This document shows positions 3,546 through 18,353 of a stretch of DNA of 64,000 nucleotides, piece after piece. The DNA lies in NCBI GenBank assembly GCA_015501585.1, contig JADNRY010000166.1:62001-126000 (forward strand). The letters run 5' to 3'. The notes beneath the pieces were generated by a model. That model did not search any database and was not told the origin of the DNA. It worked only from the letters and a program-made list of their open reading frames with translations. Every line of letters starts with the position of its first letter. Position 1 is the stretch's first letter. Source of the stretch: Rhodocollybia butyracea (lineage: Eukaryota; Basidiomycota; Agaricomycetes; Agaricales; Omphalotaceae). The position numbers and the translations under genes were made by a program.

Positions 3546-6396
3546 ATGTCTTCGTAAGTACACGCATACTACACAATGTCCGTCTAATTTTTCACAATCT
3601 CCAGACATGCTTCAAATGGTGAAATACCCAGTCAGAACACCTTTATTGATAGCGATGTAAACACCGCCTATCATATGGCCAATCAGGATCTAGGGCAAGG
3701 TACGTGATTACGATATATGAAGTGTAGTATCCCAAGGGTTAACATTACTTTATGTTGCTGAACCAGATCAATCCTTGTCATTGTCAAATGTTCGACAGTG
3801 TCCAACCCCAAGCCAATACTTCACTGGACGTAAAGAAGCACTTAGCAGGCTAGGAAAAATATTCTCTGCACCGGTGGTAACACTTTTTGGTCCAGATCAA
3901 CATATGCTTGCATCTTTTGTGAGGCACACTTTCAGGTAAAAAGTGCAATATAGTATAAATTTGATATAAACTAACCTCTCACAGTACCCGGGCTGTTTTC
4001 CTTCTTGCAAGCTCAGCTGAAGCATTGGCTGTGGGACTTGCACAGACAAGCCTCCAAGATCCCCAAGTACTTACAGCCACACTTTTAGTTCTGGAAAATA
4101 CACATCCGTCTCTTGTCTTAGCTGATCATCTCCCGGCCTGCTGTAGTTCTCCTGTTCTTATCACAAGCACCAATCATGCAGTTTCCCACTTGGCATCCTC
4201 TCCTGCTTATGGATTTCAACTCCCCGATCACCCAAATCAACAAATAATGAACAAACTGCGGGGATCAGTTCAAAAGGCCCTTGAGCCTAAGCAGCATATT
4301 GTAACACTTGTAGCAAGTGGAGGAACTGGAAAAACGCAAACGGTTCTGAAATTTATTTCAGATAACTCGTCAAGGTAGATCTTGCACAATCATCCTGCAG
4401 AAAATGCTTATATCACTTTGATGTCTTCCCCCAGATTTTCAAACATATGGTTTTTTGATGCAACGTCTGATACTACACTTACAGCCGATTTTAAGGCACT
4501 GGGTAAAGTCGCCAGTGTGGGGGAAGATGTTAAAGATGTGCGGGACTTCCTGGCCAGAATGGATCACAACTGGCTTTGCATTTTTGACAATGCTGATGAC
4601 AAGGAGTTATACCTCAAAGACTATATTCCCAGCTGCAGTCATGGGAATATTATAATCACAAGCCGGCTACTGGAAGCGTCACAAATGGACTCCCCCGGTT
4701 GCCACCTTGAATTTGGGGACCTGAACAAGGATGATGCCATTGAGCTGTTGCTGAAATATGCCCACAAAGAGAGTTCTGAGACAAACAAGAGTCTAGCTGC
4801 TGAGATTGCTGATACCTTGGGCTGTAATGCTCTTGCTTTATCAACATCTGGAGCATATATTCTCACAACAAGGACCTGCACTCTTAGCAACTACTTGGGC
4901 CATTTCAATAAGAAAAGGAAGGAAATTCTTAACTATAGATTGAGATCACTGGATAGCTACCAAAGAACTATATTCAGTGCATTCAAAATGAACTTTGAGA
5001 ATCTCAGCCTTCCAACACAATATTTGATGCAGATCTGTGCTTATATTCATCCAACTGCCATTCCTATGGAGATGTTTATCCGGGCAGCTAGCTTTGAAGG
5101 AAATGATATTGGATCTGCTGATTTACATAGACCAACTCAGGCCATCAGCTTGACTGAGAAGTTTTTGTCCTTATTTGGAGAAGCAGACTCATGGGATGAC
5201 AGTGTAAATGAATTGTGTCAATTGTCACTTGCATCATATGATGATCTTCAAAACACTCTGACCTTCCACTCAGTGATACACAAATGTGTGCGGGAAACTG
5301 TGCCATCTGAAGTAGACATGGCTCAAGCAGCAATGATAGTATTGGGGCGTGCCACCCCACTAGGAGCAACATATGAGGAATATAAATTTCGGAAAAGGGT
5401 GGTCACACATGCGAGCCATATGCAATTAGAAAATCTACCCACTGTCCATGTACGGATCTGCTTGCAAGGATCTTCTGGGATAGTGGATTTTGGGCACAAA
5501 CCGAGGCACTTGAGGAGCAAACAGTCATGATAAGTAAAGAAGGACTTGGTCAGCGCCACCCTGACACATTGATGGCCATGATTAAGCTTGGAGCTACTTA
5601 TCGCACCCGGGGAAAGCTGGAGGCTGCCGAGTACACTGATCAGGAGGCAGTTTCTTTATGCAAAGATGTGCACGGGGAGAACCACCCTGATACGGTGCTG
5701 TCAATGGCAAACCTTGCTGCTACATATCAGGCACGTGGAAAATTGGAGGAAGCGGAGAGACTCAAGGAGGAGGTCCTTTCAATACGTAAGGTGATATTGG
5801 GTGAACGTCATCCTGCTACACTTACCTCCATGTCCAATCTTGCTTTCACTTATAAACACCGTGGAAATTTAGAGGCAGCTGAGAAGCTTGAAGAGCAGGT
5901 GCTTGCATTACGCAAAGATATCCTTGGGGAGCACCACCCTAACACATTGACTTCCATAGCCAACCTTGCATTCACTTATAGGCAGCTTGGTAGGTTGGAG
6001 GCAGCTGAGAGGCTCGCTGAAGAAGTACTTTCATTGAGGAAGCATTTGCTCGGAAAGCATCACCCCGATACACTGAGCTCCATGGATCATCTTGCACTTA
6101 CATATCAAGCGCGTGGAAAGTTGGAGATAGCAGAGAAAATGGAAGAAGAGGTACTTCCACTGCGAAAGGAATTCCTTGGGGAGCACCATCCCGATACGCT
6201 GCGTTCCATGCACAACCTTGCGGCTATATATCATGAGCTTAACAAGCTGGAAGAAGCTGAGATCCTTGCAGAGCAGGTACTCTTATTAAGGAAGGATGCT
6301 CTTGGGGAGCATCATCCTGATACATTGAGTTCCATGGCCAAGCTTGCAGCTGTATATCAGGCGCGTGGAAAATCAGAAGCATCGGATGGCACTTGA
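3546..6396 (+). CDS. NLR-like STAND protein: degenerate NTPase segment + NB-ARC + TPR array (copy 1)
   Basis: Predicted signal-transduction NTPase of the fungal NB-ARC/TPR class, thought to act in non-self recognition or regulated cell death; ligand unknown. Inferred exons: 3546-3553, 3605-3699, 3767-3935, 3985-4374, 4435-6396, with GT-AG introns of 51, 67, 49 and 60 nt. Order: a CPTPSQYFTGR motif common before fungal NB-ARC domains; a segment VVTLFGPDQHMLASFVR...TLLVLENTHPSLVL that looks like an NTPase without a P-loop; a true Walker A (GGTGKT, about 4320); Walker B (LCIFDNADD); an NB-ARC-like IIITSR line; a helical ARC region; then about seven 42-residue TPRs of the HPDTL...GKLEEAE type. 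Compared with copy 2, one G is missing near 5464 (TTGCAAGG against TTGGCAAGG), giving a stop at 5528-5530 before the TPRs. The rest is intact, so consensus error is as likely as pseudogenisation. The N-terminal exon model is tentative. Confidence 0.82.
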
Positions 6397-6649
6397 GGAA
6401 TGCCTGAGTTTGTGAGTATCTACTCTGTACAATAAATTTTGCTTTGAGCTCCTATGTAAATGTATGCTCATTTGCAACTGAGGTGAGATTCATTCTGATT
6501 TCACTTATGTTTGTCTACAGGTATCATATAGTTGTACTAGTAATTGTGTCCATCTTACCATCTATTTATCATTGTTTCAATTCCTATCCTTCTTGATATA
6601 TATGTGGCCATTGGCCATTTTCCAGTGTTCAAGGATGTGAAATGGAGCA
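6397..6649. other. 3' flank of NLR copy 1, shared with copy 2
   Basis: Immediately after the stop codon the sequence remains homologous, in inverted orientation, to the flank beyond NLR copy 2 (about 15400-15556) as far as roughly 6540. It contains an aataaa-like motif at about 6432. The homology then fades before the repeat-rich mobile element that begins near 6650. Confidence 0.55.
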
Positions 6650-7759
6650 TAGCACATTTACCGTAACCCCCAGCCGTAACCCAGCTGTAACCCATGACCG
6701 TAACCCTGCCGTCACCCTACCGTCACCCTACCGTCACCCCAGCTACATTCTACCGTGACCTTTGATTAATGTACAAACTTTATCTGATTATTAGTGGTAA
6801 AGTGATAAGTGGCGCTTTCAGGCCTTTGGCCATTGGGCAATGAGGGTATGCTGCAACTTGAAGCAGTGAGCAACATTTACAGAGCTATTGGGCATTTGTA
6901 GGTAGATAACCAGTTTCTATAATATATACTTACAGACTCAGCAAACCAAAAGATATACTTCATAACTATACCTTACTAACTTTTTGCACAAGTGCCATGA
7001 CCTTTCATACTTTTACCGGGGCTAGGTGGTTTTGCCGTGCAGCCGGTGCGTGGTGCGTGCAGGTGTGTGCACGCACCGACTGATGCGTGTTGCATGGTGC
7101 GTGCGCATGTAAATTACAGACTAACTTTTAACTCAAACTCAGCAAGAAATATGTACATTATGTATTCATAGGTAGTATATATGACAATTACTGTGTAATT
7201 GACGAGGTCCTAAAGGTAGATTTTATTGACATTAAGTCTTGGATAAAAAGAATATTCACATCACGCAACACTTGTGCGCACTCGGCATCATTCGCACGCA
7301 CCCTTGCACGCACCTGCACGCACCCGCACGCACCAGCACGCACCCTGCAAAATGATGCGAGGGTGCGTGCAACTTGTTGATGGCGGGTGCGTGCAAGTGA
7401 TGGCAGATCATACTTGCTTTTCACTATAATCTTTCCTTACGACTTACAAGTAGTGTTCTAGAAGCCCAGTAGTAGTAGTAGTAGTAATATAGTGCAGCCC
7501 AATTTGTGTTTATAGTAATAATAGGTAACAGGATACTTACAATATATATTATCTGCTTTGTAAAGTGTACACTGTATTATCAAGGTCTGGGGAGTTGAAC
7601 AAATGATATTTAATATTTGTACTTCAAATAATAAAGTGGAATTTGTACTCTGAGTCGCCATGCTAGTACACCATGCACCACTGGTTGTGCTCGGCCCAGT
7701 CAACATGCACGCACCACGCACCCCGTTTGCACGCACCTGCACGCACCCGGCACGCACCA

Positions 7760-8181
7760 TATTAGAGGTTGATCGATAAGGCAGACAGTGTACTCTACAC
7801 TGTTAGTAGGCTCTGGTCACACAGACACAGAGGAGACGAAGGTCCAGACACAGACACAAACAGAGAAAACACAACTTGATATTCCACAAGTACATACAGG
7901 CTTAAATACGAGTCCAGCGAGTTAATAATAAGTACAACGTGTGAAGCGTTCACAGACGGAGTGAGAGTAATAAGACGAGAGTGGAATGGAGCACAAGGTA
8001 AGTAAGTAAGAATAGACGAGAGCACGATAATAAAGCAATGGCGAGTGGGCAGGATAAAGATAGTACAACTAGTTCACATACCAGTAGTTACAGCGAGAGA
8101 GAACATTTCATAGATAGTAACGAAGTGGGAAGACTGTTCCATAGTAAGTATAATGAAGTTGATAGATGACGAAGTCCAACA
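7760..8181 (-). repeat. 3' LTR of the copia element
   Basis: A 422-bp long terminal repeat, apparently identical to the copy at 13036-13457. Its inner edge abuts the polypurine tract. Confidence 0.93.
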
Positions 8182-8195
8182 CTCCTCCTCAAACC
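8182..8195 (-). other. Polypurine tract of the copia element
   Basis: On the minus strand this reads ggtttgaggaggag directly before the TG that opens the 3' LTR. It overlaps the last codons of pol. This is the expected plus-strand primer site for reverse transcription. Confidence 0.8.
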
Positions 8196-11100
8196 TTTGC
8201 AAGTCCCATAGACGATGCGAAGTGTTTGGCTTTTGCTGAAGTCAAAGCCTTGGTGAAAATGTCTGCCGTCATGTCCTCGGTTGGACAGTAAGTAAGTCGA
8301 ATGTTACCTTCTTCAATAGCATACCGAATGAAATGATACCGTATGTCGATGTGTTTGGTCCGTGCATGAAACCTGTCATCTTTCGCTAGAGCAATGGCTG
8401 ATTGGTTGTCCGAGTGAAGTGTGATAGGTCCGGCGATTGGAGTGAACAACTCGGAGATGAGGTTTCGAAGCCAAATTGCTTCCTTGGCTGCATGCGTGAG
8501 AGCAACGTACTCTGCTTCTGTAGTGGATAGAGAGATGGTGTCCTGTCGCTTTGATGACCATGATACTGCTCCGCCATTAAGCATAAAAACGTATCCTGAT
8601 ATGGCATGTCTGTCCTCTTGGGACATTCCATCGGCGTCCGTAAATCCCTCGACAGGATGTTTCTGCACTCCTCCTGAAGTTAGCCAATAATCCCGGGTAT
8701 ATTTCAGATAAGCGTATACACGCCTAAGTCCGTTCCAATGAGCGATGCCTGGATTCTGTGAGAATCGGGCAAGAATGGCAACCGTATAGGTGATGTCGGG
8801 TCGTGTGGCAATGGAAAGATATTGGAGAGCACCAAGTGCTTCTCGGTAAGGCTTATCCCGCATGGCGGCGATATCTTCCACAGTCTGTGGCATCTGGTCT
8901 TTGGTGAGATGAATATGGGGGTCGAAAGGAATGGAGAGTGGCTTTATGTCAGAAAATCCGTAGCGGCTAAGAATAGCATCAATGTATGATCGCTGTGATA
9001 AACGGATAGATCTGCTGTGAAGTGATCTCTGAATCTCGATTCCAAGTAGCCAATGAATTTCGCCCTGATCTGTGACCTCGATAATCGCGCTGATAGATTT
9101 CTTCAGCTGTGCCATAATTTCCAGAGTTTTGGTAACCAATGTCATATCATCCACATGGATGAAAATGATTGTGAACGGGTTGGTGCGATAGAATACGGCA
9201 TGATCAAAATCTGACCGTTTGAAGCCTAGCTTCGTCATGATTTCTCTGAATCGCAAATACCATCTTCGACCTGCTTGTTTAAGTCCGTACAAGGCAAGTT
9301 TGAGTCGAAGTACTTGTCCGGGTTTTACACCTAGATTAATGCCGGTTGGTGCCTTCATGTAGATCTTTTCGCTGTCATCAAGTTTGCCATAGAGATATGC
9401 CGATTTGACATCCATCTGATGAATGATCCAGCTGTGTTCAGCTGCGATGCTGAGAATAGTTCTGGCTGATGCGAGTTTGGCAACTGATGCGAAAGTTTCA
9501 TCTGGAAAATAATCAACATCTGGGATTTGATTAAATCCTCGCACCACAAGTCTGGCTCTGTGACTAGTAAGCCGTCCTTGTTCATCTTTCTTGGTCCGAT
9601 AAACCCATTTGGATGTGAGAATGTTTGCATCCGATGGTGCCGTGACTATATCGTAAGTTTCACGCTGGTTGAGTCTGGATATCTCCTCGTTCATGGCTTC
9701 TTGCCATTTTGGCCAGTCAGGTCGGCGCATAGCTTCTGCAACTGATAAAGGATCTGATTCGATTTCAGATGTGACTTGTGCAAGTGATGCTGTAAGGTAT
9801 CGGAGTTCTGTGTTACCCTCTGCTGATCCTTCAATGATATCCCTGATTTTCTGAGTGGGTCGCCTGACACGTTTTCCGGTAAGTTGTTCCGGCGGGATGG
9901 GCTCTGCAATTTCGTCAGGTACAGGAATAATAGGCTGTTCCGACTCAGTGACTGATGTTTCCAAATTTTCCAAATTTCCATCCTCCTCCTCAATGAGTTG
10001 GATCTGCCTGTTGGAAATTGTTACGTTCCGTTCCGTGGTAACTGTTCGTCGCTGTGGCCAATAGATAAAATATCCGTTAGATTCCGTGTCTATACCTATC
10101 CATCTTCCTTCTTGTGCCTGTGGTTCGAATTTTCCTGGCTCTTTCTCCTTCTTTACATACACTATGCTCCCAAATATTTGAAAGTTAGAAATGTCGGGTT
10201 TTTGATTGAACCGTTTTTCATATGGTGTCGCCATATTTATTCCCTTCTTTGGTGTCCTGTTCCAAATATAAACCACGTACTTCATCATAAATCCCCATAG
10301 CCATTTAGGGAGTCCTGATGAAATGATTAGACTTCGTACTGCATTCAGTAGAGTCCGATGAGTGCGTTCCGCTATGCCGTTATGTTCCGGAGTGTCATGC
10401 ACCGTTAATCTCCGCTGGGTGCCAAGTCGTTCCAGGTAATGGTTGAATTCTCGGCTAAGAAACTCTCCCCCTCGATCAGAGTGAAGAATTTTAACAGTGA
10501 TGCCATATTGAGTCTGGAGATTGGTTTGAATAATGACGTACTGGGTGAATGCTTCATCCTTGCTTTTCAGCAATGGTTCCTCTAACCATAGAGTCGCCTC
10601 GTCGACTATGGTGAGGGCATAAGTGCAACGGTTGATAGTCTGAACTGATGTGGGTCCCCAGACGTCCATGTGAAAAACATCTCCATAATTCTCTGCTCGT
10701 GGAGAAGACCGTAATTTGGCAATCGGAAATCTTGCTGCCTTAGCTAGCAAGCATGTACGGCATTCCGGCTCGTCCATGTGAGATTTATCCAATCTCATCC
10801 CATTGATCTGGTTGTGTGCGAATAAGTGCTTAATATAAGCATAGTTCTGATGGCCTAAGATGCAGTGGGCGTCATAGAGTGATACCAGTCGATCTTTGGC
10901 AACATAAGCATATTCCTCCATGGGAATCTGGTAGAGTCCATGGATCTTCGGAATACGTGCAACGATCCTGTTGTTGGGGTCAGTCATGGTGAGTAAACCA
11001 TTCCCAATGTGGATATTGTATCCATCATCATCGAGTTTTCCCAAGGAAATAAGAGTGTTGGGAATGTTGGGGCATAGGAGGGCATTATGGAGTGGGACGG

Positions 11101-11452
11101 TTCGAGTATTGCCGTGGTTATCAATTGGAAAATCCAAATGAAGCGTACCTGCCATGCTAGAATTAAAAGTTCCGGCATTGGCTGCTTGAATGACTTTAGT
11201 CGGAATAGACTTTAGATCTTGGAGGCTGTCCTCCATAGGAGTCATGTGGCTCGAGCATCCGGAATCAAATAGTATAGCCCCTCGGCTATGTGCTCCCATC
11301 ATTGCTGTTTCGTGTTCATCAGCAATATCATTGAAATCAAATGTGAGATATGTTTCTGCTGTATTTGGGGACATCTGGAAAGATGCCGTCGAGTTTCCAA
11401 GCTCGGTGTAGGATTTGGCGGGAGGAAAGACGAAGCTGGTGTCCGATGACAA
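8189..11452 (-). CDS. copia Pol: protease, integrase, reverse transcriptase, RNase H
   Basis: The pol frame is uninterrupted for 1,087 residues and continues in frame from the Gag zinc knuckle, so 11452 marks the frame rather than a true start codon. Domains in order: aspartic protease (FDSGCSSHM); GAG-pre-integrase HHCC zinc region (HCILGHQ...CRTCLLAKA); integrase core with D (FHMDVWGP), D (ILHSDRGGEF) and E (NGIAERTH); reverse transcriptase with QMDVKSAYLYG and the active-site line IHVDDM; RNase H with FTDADG, TEAEY and LHSDNQSA. All catalytic acids seen are present, so the enzyme set looks functional even though Gag is broken. Confidence 0.93.
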   Translation of the reverse strand: MSSDTSFVFPPAKSYTELGNSTASFQMSPNTAETYLTFDFNDIADEHETAMMGAHSRGAILFDSGCSSHMTPMEDSLQDLKSIPTKVIQAANAGTFNSSMAGTLHLDFPIDNHGNTRTVPLHNALLCPNIPNTLISLGKLDDDGYNIHIGNGLLTMTDPNNRIVARIPKIHGLYQIPMEEYAYVAKDRLVSLYDAHCILGHQNYAYIKHLFAHNQINGMRLDKSHMDEPECRTCLLAKAARFPIAKLRSSPRAENYGDVFHMDVWGPTSVQTINRCTYALTIVDEATLWLEEPLLKSKDEAFTQYVIIQTNLQTQYGITVKILHSDRGGEFLSREFNHYLERLGTQRRLTVHDTPEHNGIAERTHRTLLNAVRSLIISSGLPKWLWGFMMKYVVYIWNRTPKKGINMATPYEKRFNQKPDISNFQIFGSIVYVKKEKEPGKFEPQAQEGRWIGIDTESNGYFIYWPQRRTVTTERNVTISNRQIQLIEEEDGNLENLETSVTESEQPIIPVPDEIAEPIPPEQLTGKRVRRPTQKIRDIIEGSAEGNTELRYLTASLAQVTSEIESDPLSVAEAMRRPDWPKWQEAMNEEISRLNQRETYDIVTAPSDANILTSKWVYRTKKDEQGRLTSHRARLVVRGFNQIPDVDYFPDETFASVAKLASARTILSIAAEHSWIIHQMDVKSAYLYGKLDDSEKIYMKAPTGINLGVKPGQVLRLKLALYGLKQAGRRWYLRFREIMTKLGFKRSDFDHAVFYRTNPFTIIFIHVDDMTLVTKTLEIMAQLKKSISAIIEVTDQGEIHWLLGIEIQRSLHSRSIRLSQRSYIDAILSRYGFSDIKPLSIPFDPHIHLTKDQMPQTVEDIAAMRDKPYREALGALQYLSIATRPDITYTVAILARFSQNPGIAHWNGLRRVYAYLKYTRDYWLTSGGVQKHPVEGFTDADGMSQEDRHAISGYVFMLNGGAVSWSSKRQDTISLSTTEAEYVALTHAAKEAIWLRNLISELFTPIAGPITLHSDNQSAIALAKDDRFHARTKHIDIRYHFIRYAIEEGNIRLTYCPTEDMTADIFTKALTSAKAKHFASSMGLAKV

Positions 11453-13011
11453 CTCAATGGCTGCCCAAGATGATTCTGGGACTTCTTCAATCTGTGATGA
11501 AGATGCGGTTTCCTTCCCCTTTTGCCTAGATCTCCAATTTTCATCTGATTTCTTCCCCTCTTTCGGCTCGTGAGTTTCCCTACTCTCTTTGGCTTGATTA
11601 GCCTGTGGCCGTTTAGGCGATGGACATGTGCTCGCAAAATGTCCTTTCCCTCCACAATTAAAACATGCGGAAGTAGACCTGTTAGGTCCATTTGGTTTCG
11701 AGTTTCCTCGGCCCCTAGAAAATCCCCTCTGAGAAAATCCTCGACCTCGGAATCCACCTCAACCTCGGGAATTTCCCGCATAGTTAGCCGATTCCTTCTT
11801 CCCCTTGTTGTGATGACTAGCACTACGTACGTGTCCCTGTGCTTCTGCACGAATGGTGGCAATCAATTCCTGTGTTGCCAGTTTCTTGTCGGTTCGAGAT
11901 GTGACTACAACAAGTGCGTTTATGGTGGGTCTGAATTGGTTGGGGATAGAGGATATGATGGTGTTGTTGAACATTTCATCGCTAAATTCGATGCCGCGGG
12001 TTTCAAGACTGTCTCGGATTTCCAACATAGTGTCTAGGTGTTTGTTAACCCTAGATGGTTCATAGCAACGCATGGTGTGAAGCTGTCTCTGCAGATGTGA
12101 TTCCGTGAGCGCATTTTTGGAGTCAAAATCAGCGATTAAATTTGTCCACACATCACAAGTGTTGGTATAATTTCTATACCTTCGAAAAATGCCATCCGAT
12201 AATCTGCCAATTAAAGCATTTAGCAAATCTGTATCAGATGATTTATCCCCTGTATTTCCGGCTTCTCGTGTGTCTGTTGCTTCATGGGGTTCCATGTGAG
12301 GTACTTGCCATAATTTATGGACTTTGCAGCTAATTCTACTCGACTTTTCCATGTGTCCCAGTTCGATCCATCCGGTTTAAGGGTAGTGACCTTGTCAAAT
12401 GCTTTCAGTGCTTTGGACATCTCGTCGTCAGATGAGTAGCTATCTGATTCTTCTTTGTCTGATGATCCTGGATCGCCTCCGTCAGATGGTGGTGAGCTGT
12501 GAGGTAAGTCTGATGTTGGGATCAAAGGAGTATCGTGATCTGATGGTACAGGTGATGGAGCTGGTGGGGGCGGCGGTGGTGGCTGCGGCTTTGGCTGTGT
12601 TGGTTGTGATTGAGAGGCCTGTGATGCTTGTGATGATGCCCTTGATATTTTCGGGGCTGGCTGCTGTAGAGGTGATGTTGGTGCCGCTGGTTTGGGTACT
12701 GCCGCTTTCTCCTGGGATTTTTCAATTCTGTGTGCTATTCCAGATGTTATTTCTGGTATGTCTTCTGTAGGACTGGGTATGTCGTATCTGTTTGGACAGA
12801 TTTTCCGGTTACAAAATTCGTATTTTCCAGTCTGTAAGCTGTTGTAACAATCTTGGTATTTTGTTGGAATCCAAAGATGTGGTCTTAGGGCACAAGGAAG
12901 CTCTGGGTTGTTGGCGGCAACTGGCTTAGTTGTGGCTGAAGCTCGTGTGGATGGTTTCGATGAGCTGGGTTGTTGTGACATCAACAATGGTGTCTGGGAT
13001 GGTGGCGTCAA
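11453..13011 (-). pseudogene. copia Gag region (broken by a frame shift and an in-frame stop)
   Basis: The coat-protein region starts with a Pro/Ser-rich extension (about 13011-12400), then the copia Gag domain (LKPDGSNWDTWKSRVELAA), continuing as TDLLNALIGRLSDGIFRRY, an RGG-rich linker and a CCHC zinc knuckle CFNCGGKGHFASTC (about 11665-11624). The zinc knuckle is in the same frame as pol and runs into it openly, so Gag-Pol is designed as one polyprotein. Two lesions interrupt it: a -1 shift at the plus-strand G4 run 12286-12289, and TGA for an expected CGA at 11761-11759 in the linker. With identical LTRs these are surprisingly fresh lesions, or sequence errors. Confidence 0.8.
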
Positions 13012-13023
13012 TGGTTAGGCTCG

Positions 13024-13035
13024 GGGCCCATAACC
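13024..13035 (-). other. Primer binding site of the copia element
   Basis: Minus strand ggttatgggccc abuts the 5' LTR. It is complementary to the anticodon-arm sequence gggcccataacc of initiator tRNA-Met rather than to a tRNA 3' end. This matches the half-tRNA priming known for Drosophila copia. The tRNA identity is inferred from recalled initiator-tRNA sequence, not checked. Confidence 0.6.
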
Positions 13036-13457
13036 TATTAGAGGTTGATCGATAAGGCAGACAGTGTACTCTACACTGTTAGTAGGCTCTGGTCACACAG
13101 ACACAGAGGAGACGAAGGTCCAGACACAGACACAAACAGAGAAAACACAACTTGATATTCCACAAGTACATACAGGCTTAAATACGAGTCCAGCGAGTTA
13201 ATAATAAGTACAACGTGTGAAGCGTTCACAGACGGAGTGAGAGTAATAAGACGAGAGTGGAATGGAGCACAAGGTAAGTAAGTAAGAATAGACGAGAGCA
13301 CGATAATAAAGCAATGGCGAGTGGGCAGGATAAAGATAGTACAACTAGTTCACATACCAGTAGTTACAGCGAGAGAGAACATTTCATAGATAGTAACGAA
13401 GTGGGAAGACTGTTCCATAGTAAGTATAATGAAGTTGATAGATGACGAAGTCCAACA
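13036..13457 (-). repeat. 5' LTR of the copia element
   Basis: A 422-bp long terminal repeat, apparently identical to the copy at 7760-8181. The element's promoter is expected here. Its inner edge abuts the primer binding site. Confidence 0.93.
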
Positions 13458-14348
13458 CACCACACATGGGGTGCACGGCAAAATATATGTGCCGCTTTTA
13501 CCGTAACCCTTCCGTGACCCTTGGTGAATTTACTGTGACGTTTTTGCACAAATGCCATGATATTTGTCGCAAGTGCCGTGACCTTAATGGCATGTACCGT
13601 AACCCTGCCGTGACCTTTAGTACATTTACCGTGACCTTTTTTTGCAAGTGCCGTGACCTTGCCAACTTTTACCCTAACCCTGCCATGACCTTTAGTACAA
13701 TTACCGTGACCTTTTTCACAAGTGATTTCTCAAGTGCAGTGACCTCAACAAACAATTGCCGCGATCCTTACGTGACCTTTAGTAGGTCCGCCATGACCTT
13801 AGGTGTATTTACTGTCACCTGTTGCCTGAGTACCATGGTGCCATGACCCTTGGTATACTTACTTACTGTTGCCTGACCTTTGGTATATTTACTGTCACCT
13901 TTGCGCATGATACTTATAATCTTATTCCCATAGCCCTGCCATGTTTGCTGTGATTGACCCCCCTTAATCATAGTAATGGTTGCTAGGCCCTTGAATTGTA
14001 GAAATAGTGTATAGAAATACAAAGTAAATGTACTGCAGTACCGTGACCCTCAAGGAAAGTGCCGTAACCCTGACCACATTTACCGTCACCCGCCGTCACC
14101 CTACTGTAACTGTTACGGTGGGCTACGGCGGGGTTATGGTAAATGCTAATGGCCCATGTGAAATGTGTTTCGTGTTGTAACAGATAGTTCTACTGTCTTT
14201 GCGGTTGTTTTGTATCATTTTCTGTACCATACCAAAGTGGTTTGTTGAGGAACAGCAAGGGAAAAGGTAACGTCGACCCTCAACGAGAGGGGAATTGCCA
14301 CGACGTGGTACAAGCGAAACAACAATCAAGGTTATGTAACATACATTA

Positions 14349-15556: not shown

Positions 15557-18353
15557 TCAAGTGCCATCCGATGCTTCTGATTTTCCACGCGCCTGATATA
15601 CAGCTGCAAGCTTGGCCATGGAACTCAATGTATCAGGATGATGCTCCCCAAGAGCATCCTTCCTTAATAAGAGTACCTGCTCTGCAAGGATCTCAGCTTC
15701 TTCCAGCTTGTTAAGCTCATGATATATAGCCGCAAGGTTGTGCATGGAACGCAGTGTATCGGGATGATGCTCCCCAAGGAATTCCTTTCGTAGTGGAAGT
15801 ACCTCTTCTTCCATTTTCTCTGCTATCTCCAACTTTCCACGTGCTTGATATGTAAGTGCAAGATGATCCATGGAGCTCAGTGTATCGGGGTGATGCTTTC
15901 CGAGCATATACTTCCTCAATGAAAGTACTTCTTCAGCAAGCCTCTCAGCTGCCTCCAACCTACCAAGCTGCCTATAAGTGAATGCAAGGTTGGCTATGGA
16001 AGTCAATGTGTTAGGGTGGTGCTCCCCAAGAATATCTTTGCGCAATACAAGCACCTGCTCTTCAAGCTTCTCAGCTGCCTTCAAATTTCCACGGTGTTTA
16101 TAAGTGAAAGCAAGATTGGACATGGAGGTAAGTGTAGCAGGATGACGTTCACCCAATATCACCTTACGTATTGAAAGTACCTCCTCCTTGAGTCTCTCCG
16201 CTTCCTCCAATTTTCCACGTGCCTGATATGTAGCAGCAAGGTTTGCCATTGACAGCACCGTATCAGGGTGGTTCTCCCCATGCACATCTTTGCATAAAGA
16301 AACCGCCTCCTGATCAGTGTACTCAGCAGCCTCCAGCTTTCCCCGGGTGCGATAAGTAGCTCCAAGTTTAATCATGGCCATCAATGTGTCAGGGTGGCGC
16401 TGACCAAGTCCTTCTTTACTTATCAAGACTGTTTGCTCCTCAAGTGCCTCGGTTTGTGCCCAAAATCCACTATCCCAGAAGATCCTTGCCAAGCAGATCC
16501 GCACATGGACAGTGGGTAGATTTTCTAATTGCATATGGCTGGCATGCGTGACCACCCTTTTCCGAAACTTATATTCTTCATCTGTTGCTCCCAGTGGAGT
16601 GGCACGCCCCAACAATATCATTGCTGCTTGAATCATGTCTGCTTCAGATGGAACAGTTTCCCGCACACATTTGTGTATCACTGAGTGGAAGGTCAGAGTG
16701 TTTTGAAGATCATCATATGATGCAAGTGACAATTGACACAATTCATTTACACTGTCATCCCATGAGTCTGCTTCTCCAAATAGAGACAAAAACTTTTCAG
16801 TCAAGTTGAGGGCTTGAGTTGGTGGATATAAATCAGCAGATCTAATATCACTGCCTTCAAAGCCAGCTGCACGGATAAACATCTCCATAGGAATTGCTAT
16901 CGGATGAATGTATGCACAGATCTGCATCATATGCTGAGTTGCATGGCTGAGATTCTCAAAGTTCATTTTGAATGCACTGAATATAGTTCTTTGGTAGCTA
17001 TCCAGTGATCTCAATCTATAGTTAAGAATTTCCTTCCTTTTCTTATTCAAATGGCTCAAGTAGTTGCAAGAGTACAGGTCCTTGTTGTAAGAATATATGC
17101 TCCAGCTGTTGATACAGCAAGAGCATGACAGCCCAAGGTATCCACAATCTCACTGGCTAGCTTCTTGTTTCCTTCAGAACTCTCCATATGTGCATGTTTT
17201 AGCAGCAGCTCAATGGCATCGTCCTGATTCAAGTCACCAAAAGCAATGTGACACCCCGGGGTATCCATTTCTGAGGTTTCCAGTAGCCGACTTGTGATAA
17301 TAATATTCCCATGACTGCAACTGGGAATATAGTCTTTGAGGTATAACTCCTTGTCATCAGCATTGTCAAAAATGCAAAGCCAGTTGTGATCAATTCTGGC
17401 CAGGAAGTCCCGCACACTTTTAACCTCTTGACCCACACCGGCAACTTTACCCAGAGCTTTGAAGTCAGTTGTGAGTGTAGTATCAGAGGTTGCATCAAAA
17501 AACCATATGTTTGAGAACCTAAGTGAAGACGTTGGCAAGGTAATCTAAGTATTTATGCAATATCATTTGGCAAGATCAATCAGTACCTTGATGAGTTATC
17601 CAAAACAAACTTGAGCACCACTTGTGTTTTTCCAGTTCCCCCACTAGCCACAAGTGTTACAATATGCTGCTTAGGCTTGAGAGCCTTTTGAATTGATCCC
17701 TGCACCTGATTCATAAGCTGTTGTTTTGGGCGCTCAGGAAGTTGAAATGCATTATCAGGAGAGGACGCCAATTTTCCTACTGCAGAGTTGGTGCTTGTGA
17801 TAAGAACAGGGCAACTACAGCAGGCAGGAAGATGATCATCTAAGACAAGAGATGGATGTGCATTTTCCAGGACTAGAAGTGTGTTGGCACGTAATTTCGA
17901 ATCTGGGAATTTTTCGGCGAGCGCTTTAGCCAAAGCTTCATCTGAACTTGCAAGAAGGTAAACGGTCTCGGTTCTATGGCAGGGTAGTCTATATCATATT
18001 CAAACTATACTGAGTTTGAAGCTTTTTACCTGCCAATTGTCCTCACAAAAGATGCAAGAATCTTTTCATCTGGACCCAACAGTGTCATTATTGTTGCCGA
18101 AAATATTTTGCACAGCTTGCTAAGTGTATCCTGACGCCCAGTAAAGTACTGGCTTGGGGCGGGACACTGTCGAACATTTGACAGAGACAATGTTCGATCT
18201 GGTCCAGGATATAAATAGTGTTAAAACTTAAAACTCAAGGTACTACTACAGCTCATATATTAATCACATACCTCGCCTTGGCTCTGGATTCGGTACATGT
18301 ATAACTTGGAAGGTAGATCCAAAAATCTGGAAATGCGATGCTCCAGCAAACAT
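15557..18353 (-). CDS. NLR-like STAND protein: degenerate NTPase segment + NB-ARC + TPR array (copy 2)
   Basis: Inverted paralogue of the gene at 3546-6396, with the same architecture. Inferred exons: 18353-18272, 18200-18030, 17973-17587, 17518-15557. Exon 1 encodes MFAGASHFQIFGSTFQV, which resembles the MF..A..F.I.G..F motif common at the N-terminus of agaricomycete STAND proteins and absent from copy 1. Then CPAPSQYFTGR, a P-loop-less NTPase-like segment (IMTLLGPDEKILASFVR ... TLLVLENAHPSLVL), Walker A GGTGKT, Walker B LCIFDNADD, and about seven 42-residue TPRs. Two frame problems: near 17067 one base is missing compared with copy 1 (CTTGCAAC against CTTAGCAAC), and exon 2 has two extra bases near its start, so the join to exon 1 is out of phase. 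The TPR part differs from copy 1 at only about four residues. Confidence 0.8.

Follow-up and report, generated by a model that had tools for sequence, protein, structure and literature searches.

A degenerate NB subdomain ahead of the working NB-ARC domain in tandem-type NLRs of Rhodocollybia butyracea

Why should a receptor carry what looks like a second nucleotide-binding domain directly in front of its working one? Two convergent NOD-like receptor (NLR) genes raise this question in a 64,000-nucleotide stretch of the basidiomycete Rhodocollybia butyracea (contig JADNRY010000166.1, positions 62,001 to 126,000; hereafter the window), which belongs to an assembly of 95.6 Mb. Their products are P0127 and P0009, both listed under the name Rhodocollybia butyracea. 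A preliminary description had read the part between an FTGR motif and the Walker A motif GGTGKT as a pseudo-NTPase, a duplicated NTPase fold that no longer binds nucleotide. We find that this segment is almost certainly a duplicated nucleotide-binding (NB) subdomain of the NB-ARC type, and a dead one.

NLR1 (plus strand, from 3767) and NLR2 (minus strand, from 18198) share an identical domain order. A CPxPSQYF-FxGR hinge, a linker helix, the segment and a second linker helix lead to strand 1 of the true NB-ARC and GGTGKT; after Walker A come the remaining NB-ARC, a DUF7779-like region and tetratricopeptide repeats (TPRs). The ordered series FTGR, VVTLFGPDQHMLASFV, VFLLASS, LLVLENTHPSLVL and PVLITSTN before GGTGKT, as originally pointed out, is present in NLR1 and repeated in NLR2 (minus strand, 18198-17587). 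Positions 3767-4374 comprise two NLR1 exons and the 49-base intron between them, and the public protein P0127 is concordant with this. The true NB-ARC sets in before that range ends, its strand 1, Walker A and helix 1 taking up the final 83 bases, so the degenerate domain itself is confined to about 3874-4228 (~105 residues).

Relationship of the segment to NB-ARC domains

We compared hhalign profiles built from 35 segments, 30 true domains and 14 Mycena domains. The segment core, with its linker removed, matched the receptor's own NB-ARC (probability 97.5, E 5.4e-12, 93 columns) as well as the NB-ARC cores of Mycena (probability 96.8, E 3e-10, 83 columns); 19 controls (4 reversed, 15 column-shuffled) gave E 0.068 to 0.74. 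When the linker was included, the match to Mycena began at CPxPS..FxGR (E 1.1e-17). The strands of the segment had been proposed to parallel those of the genuine domain, and the profile alignment paired them in just this way: FLLASS with WFFDATS, LLVLEN..LP with WLxIFDNAD..YIP and ILITST with xIIITSR. A segment profile of 17 relatives also matched the true NB-ARC in many of the same proteins. It aligned, too, for the greater part of its length with the only NB-ARC that Mycena NLRs have, as in P0069 (positions 1-117 of 131, E 1.4e-10 in a search of 129 sequences). Pfam searches with the segment alone returned nothing for the window copy and NB-ARC for none of 24 segment members, among which TrkA_N was matched in two, Barstar in two and 13 further families in one each. 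When PDB chains were searched with the segment sequence profile, all six matches were weak (best E 0.2), and designed Rossmann proteins accounted for two. The dead copy is invisible to Pfam's NB-ARC model, a null result that is outweighed by the profile-profile match, its controls and the introns.

In the window genes, a phase-2 intron lies between helix 1 and strand 2 of the segment (intron 1), and a second phase-2 intron occupies the matching place in the true NB-ARC (intron 2). Splice sites across the genome were picked by profile score and donor type, ignoring phase. Degenerate copies occur at 28 loci, of which 24 could be modelled (no intron-1 model was obtained for L025, L031, L032 and L033), and 23 of these 24 carry a phase-2 intron between helix 1 and strand 2; the sole exception, L035, yielded a poor model that is not credible, and L016 was counted with a replacement intron model, its first-pass model having a GC donor and phase 1. 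The precise position of intron 1 is ambiguous in subfamily B, where alternative sites were chosen for L022 and L024, every one of them phase 2. The live copies of the tandem-type loci, counted without L025, L028, L035 and L037, likewise have a phase-2 intron (25 of 25 modelled), at the matching place in all except the deviating L026 (24 of 25). The genome's ordinary single-NB-ARC NLRs, in which the P-loop comes straight after FxGR, show it as well (14/14 distinct loci, including some near-identical pairs). A phase-2 intron is common to dead copies, live copies and ordinary NLRs, and most simply this means that an NB-ARC was duplicated along with an intron that it already bore.

We then examined which functional motifs are retained, using 46 aligned rows. 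The segment is complete in 35 predicted proteins, of which 30 were included (5 were omitted for an incomplete NB-ARC), together with 16 loci of the species' own genome; a few rows duplicate one locus. Walker A (GxxxxGK[ST]) was found in none of the segments (0/46; the P0040 segment has GKT at another place), and in every row (46/46) the P-loop of the true domain reads GK[ST]. At the Walker B position, the Asp that the true domain keeps in 45/46 rows is Glu in 37 segments and Gln in 9. The sensor-1 (RNBS-B) Arg, present in 39/45 true domains, is Thr in 41/46 segments. ARC1 and ARC2 have no counterpart in the segment, and the linker helix of the live NB-ARC follows directly after strand 5. No first copy with an intact P-loop occurs among the 46 rows; the protein search (120 of 160 matches listed) reaches fairly close relatives only, and an intermediate may exist. 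Given the loss of Walker A, the Walker B Asp, the sensor Arg and the ARC subdomains, binding of ATP or ADP by the segment is very unlikely, judging from its sequence. Of the original proposal, the duplication and the loss of motifs stand, and the loss of binding is what we infer from them.

A structure prediction for the segment alone also placed it among P-loop NTPases, as had been anticipated. AlphaFold2 gave a mean predicted local distance difference test (pLDDT) of 84.5 and a predicted template modelling score (pTM) of 0.79, and the best 50 VIA rows for this model were all P-loop NTPases by title, 21 of them NLR or apoptosome proteins; plant NLRs were the best matches, with modest scores. 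On this model, the segment seems to retain a P-loop NTPase-like fold. A two-domain model had 45 of its 382 residues below pLDDT 50, and its pTM of 0.76 suggests that the dead copy is packed rigidly on the live domain.

The FxGR hinge, distribution and constraint

The FxGR motif touches adenine in Apaf-1-type domains, and in relatives from other fungi and metagenomes it lies at most 45 residues from the P-loop. In the tandem type, FxGR precedes the dead copy, and by eye no similar motif stands before the live P-loop. The linker carrying it has a mean entropy of 1.04 bits, close to that of the live domain (1.19) and below that of the dead core (1.95). Its pLDDT rose from 55/64 in the segment-alone model to 79/83 with the live domain, these models differing in query sequence and alignment. 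For the two-domain model, 43 of the best 50 VIA rows begin at residues 44-61, where the hinge starts or slightly ahead of it, and extend through the live domain, with 187-209 residues aligned, approximately the live half plus the hinge (judged by range ends only). The live-like entropy of the linker, its rise in pLDDT and the rows spanning hinge and live domain together make it likely that the hinge serves the live domain. The hinge probably docks there, as conservation and the model suggest, with the dead copy looped in between as an insertion. The stretch between FTGR and GGTGKT had been treated as one pseudo-NTPase unit; the NB duplicate within it holds up, and the FxGR in front is probably part of the live domain. 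Over its 22 codons, the ratio of nonsynonymous to synonymous substitution rates (dN/dS) of the linker is noisy, with a median of 0.30 and values up to 1.66 in subfamily A and a median of 0.14 in subfamily B.

The layout recurs in other basidiomycetes. Among the matches listed, segment-bearing relatives come from Rhodocollybia, Gymnopus, Lentinula, Collybiopsis, Armillaria and Stygiomarasmius; Rhodocollybia and Lentinula belong to Omphalotaceae, Armillaria to Physalacriaceae and Stygiomarasmius to Campanellaceae, three families of Marasmiineae. A region search with the second R. butyracea subfamily returned only two R. butyracea proteins. Mycena, of the same suborder as the segment-bearing relatives, has FxGR directly before an intact P-loop in 15 of the 18 proteins among the matches listed; the other three do not show that pattern, and at least two of them lack the FxGR part. 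In the R. butyracea genome itself, the segment occurs at 28 or more loci, next to 14 or more ordinary NLR loci; both counts are lower bounds, and near-identical pairs within them may be alleles. At L035/L036 (contig C412), L025 and L037, hundreds of bases to kilobases of other sequence come between the dead and the live copy, or within the live copy, and these loci are possibly broken by insertions. In P0020 and P0028 (Gymnopus androsaceus and Collybiopsis luxurians), members of the same family, FxGR is joined straight to the live P-loop and the dead copy is absent, which may reflect loss, alternative splicing or model error.

To assess constraint, we counted pairwise dN/dS for pairs with dS of 0.05-1.5. 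In subfamily A, the median was 0.39 for the segment (0.26-0.89; 37/45 pairs) and 0.19 for the true domain (29/45); in subfamily B, it was 0.23 (0.07-0.42; 27/28 pairs) and 0.21 (27/28). Between NLR1 and NLR2, the values were 0.57 for the segment and 0.14 for the true domain. The segment is under purifying selection, which is looser than that on the live domain in subfamily A. A tree of 23 dead-live pairs and 19 ordinary domains recovered the dead copies as one clade (100/100) and their live partners as another (97/92), and across the 46 rows the dead and live distance matrices correlated (r 0.80), with none of 999 permutations as high. From these separate clades and correlated distances, the sequences point to a single origin of the dead copy and its co-inheritance with the live partner since. 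With 128 columns and long branches, the tree is unable to separate the receptor's own NB-ARC from another NLR as the source of the copy.

Possible roles of the dead copy and known counterparts

The explanation that we judge likely overall is that the dead copy is a tandem NB duplicate devoid of its motifs, with the hinge bridging past it, and a cis partner of the live domain. An NB subdomain would have been tandem-duplicated with its intron and would then have lost Walker A, the Walker B Asp and the sensor Arg. Because the dead copy lies between the FxGR hinge and the working P-loop, the hinge would reach past it to the working domain. As a rigid partner in cis, the copy would hold or cap the NB assembly surface, and ADP/ATP exchange by the live domain may then free or build the active oligomer. 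That the copy is a cis regulator or assembly partner, perhaps an autoinhibitor, is a serious possibility, which we put forward tentatively, on the basis of the model, as the likeliest role. Pseudoenzymes regulate kinases and GTPases. An unlikely, more speculative extension would have a pseudo-NTPase between the adenine-sensing hinge and the switch mimic a neighbouring NB protomer in cis, capping the live assembly face at rest; perhaps there would also be splice variants without it, constitutively competent and with a single NB-ARC. Such an arrangement would be a counterpart, in signal transduction ATPases with numerous domains (STANDs), of pseudokinase control, arisen independently in mushrooms and rice. 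One known receptor weighs against assuming that the dead copy is an inhibitor: in the parts of two reviews that cover rice BPH9 (PMC11678690, PMC10419156), the complete second nucleotide-binding site (NBS2) inhibits the coiled-coil (CC) domain, and the partial NBS1, which lacks ARC2, does so less or not at all.

The main rival would make the dead copy a neutral or structural spacer, a duplicate kept since its removal would upset the junction of hinge and switch. We regard this as conceivable, if on the unlikely side. The looser constraint in subfamily A (median dN/dS 0.39 versus 0.19) would suit a spacer, as would the hydrophobic strand or helix residues at several of its best-conserved positions and the two predicted proteins that lack the copy; it has nevertheless been retained in three fungal families and at 28 loci, and its Walker B position is fixed as Glu or Gln (37 and 9 of 46) rather than drifting. 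An integrated decoy, in which the copy serves to lure pathogen or non-self factors targeting NB-ARC domains, seems improbable. Bait domains are often exchanged between receptors, whereas the dead copy has a single origin and diverged alongside its partner; and although it evolves faster than the live domain (0.57 versus 0.14 between NLR1 and NLR2), much as a diversifying surface would, every counted segment dN/dS is below 1 (maximum 0.89).

Two further readings are less probable still. If the segment were mostly spliced out, the usual protein would be an ordinary NB-ARC receptor and the dead copy an alternative exon, and the P0020 and P0028 gene models, from two species, do share the same kind of join. 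We consider this very improbable, given a complete segment in 35 predicted proteins, the coding constraint on it, and the fact that the GT and AG needed come free from Val and Gln codons, with the AG absent at 8/18 loci. We also considered the splice sites as a sign of regulated skipping and rejected them, as the codons explain them. The chance insertion of some unrelated alpha/beta fold, such as a TrkA-N-like Rossmann domain, is largely refuted: TrkA_N matches in 2/24 segment members (best E 5.4e-5) and the weak matches to designed Rossmann proteins (best E 0.2) stand against an NB-ARC profile match over most of the segment, the shared phase-2 intron, and P-loop NTPases in all of the best 50 VIA rows.

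The architecture had been thought to be without description in fungi. For fungi it is apparently new: we found no description of a dead NB copy in fungal NLRs in the open-access PMC literature, including the available portions of PMC9815663, PMC4986451 and PMC12258605, most subscription papers lying outside this coverage. The layout is, however, already known in plants. According to passages of PMC5041133, rice BPH18, BPH26 and Pib carry a complete NBS preceded by a partial one, which is cut down to the NB subdomain and whose P-loop departs strongly from consensus, and japonica rice has four such genes among 480 NBS-LRR (leucine-rich repeat) genes. As far as these sources describe them, the rice CC-NBS-NBS-LRR receptors (BPH18, BPH26, Pib and BPH9) thus resemble the fungal genes in pairing a partial first NBS of degenerate P-loop with a complete second one, a likeness of layout judged from published descriptions rather than from sequence comparison. 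They differ in that the rice receptors have CC and LRR regions, whereas the fungal genes have a short N-terminus and TPRs, with no coiled-coil family among their Pfam matches; in that the P-loop appears altered in place in rice and is shortened in the fungal dead copy; and in number, four among 480 genes in rice against 28 loci in one R. butyracea genome. Closer at hand, agaricomycete NB-ARC-TPR NLRs (for example Mycena P0060 and P0063) have the same FxGR hinge, NB-ARC type, DUF7779 and TPRs but a single NB subdomain, with an intact P-loop at most 45 residues from FxGR and no degenerate copy. Variant P-loops have been noted in fungal STANDs as single-residue NB changes (in the part available of Dyrka et al. 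2014, PMC4986451); there the NB domain itself is altered, and here a dead duplicate stands beside a working one.

A dead NB beside a live one in NLRs offers a natural test of how the STAND switch is held off and assembled, and rice receptors for insect and blast resistance, which are laid out alike, suggest that such a pair has been put to use convergently. With 28 loci in one genome (some possibly alleles) and three families, the architecture is no oddity and a comparative study is feasible.

The window genes and their surroundings

The coordinates of the two window genes are collected in Table 1. The dead-copy finding is based on the whole family and not on these two copies alone. Aligning NLR1 with NLR2 revealed a one-base frame offset in each, near 5463 in NLR1 (before the TPRs) and near 17066 in NLR2 (after the NB subdomain); one of them is bypassed in the public model P0127, and the other is where P0009 ends. 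The window genes may be broken, or the offsets may be assembly or sequencing errors; family members without such an offset include L019, L023 and the Gymnopus proteins.

Table 1. Features of NLR1 and NLR2 in the window
Feature	Position	Strand	Remark
NLR1 exon: end of N-terminal tail, CPxPSQYF-TGR hinge, linker helix, degenerate NB strand 1 and helix 1	3767..3935	+	
FTGR (FxGR hinge)	3820..3831	+	G 46/46, F 43/46, R 39/46 rows
Degenerate NB subdomain, strand 1 (VVTLF) through strand 5 (FQLPD)	3874..4228	+	split by intron 1
VVTLFGPDQHMLASFV: degenerate strand 1, site of lost Walker A, helix 1	3874..3921	+	
NLR1 intron 1, between degenerate helix 1 and strand 2	3936..3984	+	phase 2, 49 bases
NLR1 exon: remaining degenerate copy, linker helix, true strand 1, Walker A, helix 1	3985..4374	+	
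LLVLE, Walker-B-like strand	4082..4096	+	Asp to Glu
PVLITSTN, sensor-1-like strand	4151..4174	+	Arg to Thr
GGTGKT, true Walker A of working NB-ARC	4319..4336	+	
NLR1 intron 2, matching place in true NB-ARC	4375..4434	+	phase 2, 60 bases
NLR1 exon: remaining true NB-ARC and DUF7779-like region (sub-threshold)	4435..5460	+	to frame offset near 5463
NLR1 TPR array	5461..6393	+	
NLR2 exon: FTGR hinge, degenerate strand 1 and helix 1	18030..18198	-	hinge 18145-18134
NLR2 intron 1	17974..18029	-	phase 2, 56 bases
NLR2 exon: remaining degenerate copy, linker helix, Walker A	17587..17973	-	LLVLE 17879-17865, PVLITSTN 17810-17787, Walker A 17642-17625
NLR2 intron 2	17519..17586	-	phase 2, 68 bases
NLR2: remaining NB-ARC, DUF7779-like region, TPRs	15560..17518	-	one-base frame offset near 17066

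In P0127, Pfam recognised the true NB-ARC (PF00931, E 1.6e-5, 24.8 bits against a cut-off of 23.5), and DUF7779 fell below threshold (22.1 bits against 27). C-terminal TPR repeats were also matched, and in the window these lie downstream of the frame offset in each NLR copy. The N-termini of P0009 and P0127 had no Pfam match, and that of P0033 gave a sub-threshold match to SesA. A short motif, MFxxASxFxI..., recurs at the N-termini of P0001, P0009, P0022, L019 and L023 in place of a known effector domain, and it might be one of the amyloid-like motifs that the available part of PMC9815663 reports at the N-termini of agaricomycete NLRs.

NLR1 and NLR2 are 71% identical over the two segment-bearing exons, 85-91% over the NB-ARC half and 98% over the TPRs. 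In 150-base steps (window 4850-6499 against its minus-strand counterpart), identity was mostly 70-83% in the 5' half and 96-100% from 5450, with an abrupt fall after 6500, so the 3' part looks like partial gene conversion. Between the two genes lies a retrotransposon (7756-13458) with 427-base direct terminal repeats that are 99.8% identical; it is a recent insertion and, by eye, of Copia type. Upstream of NLR1, the first exon of a gene at 357-2044 matches indoleamine 2,3-dioxygenase (PF01231, E 6.4e-8).
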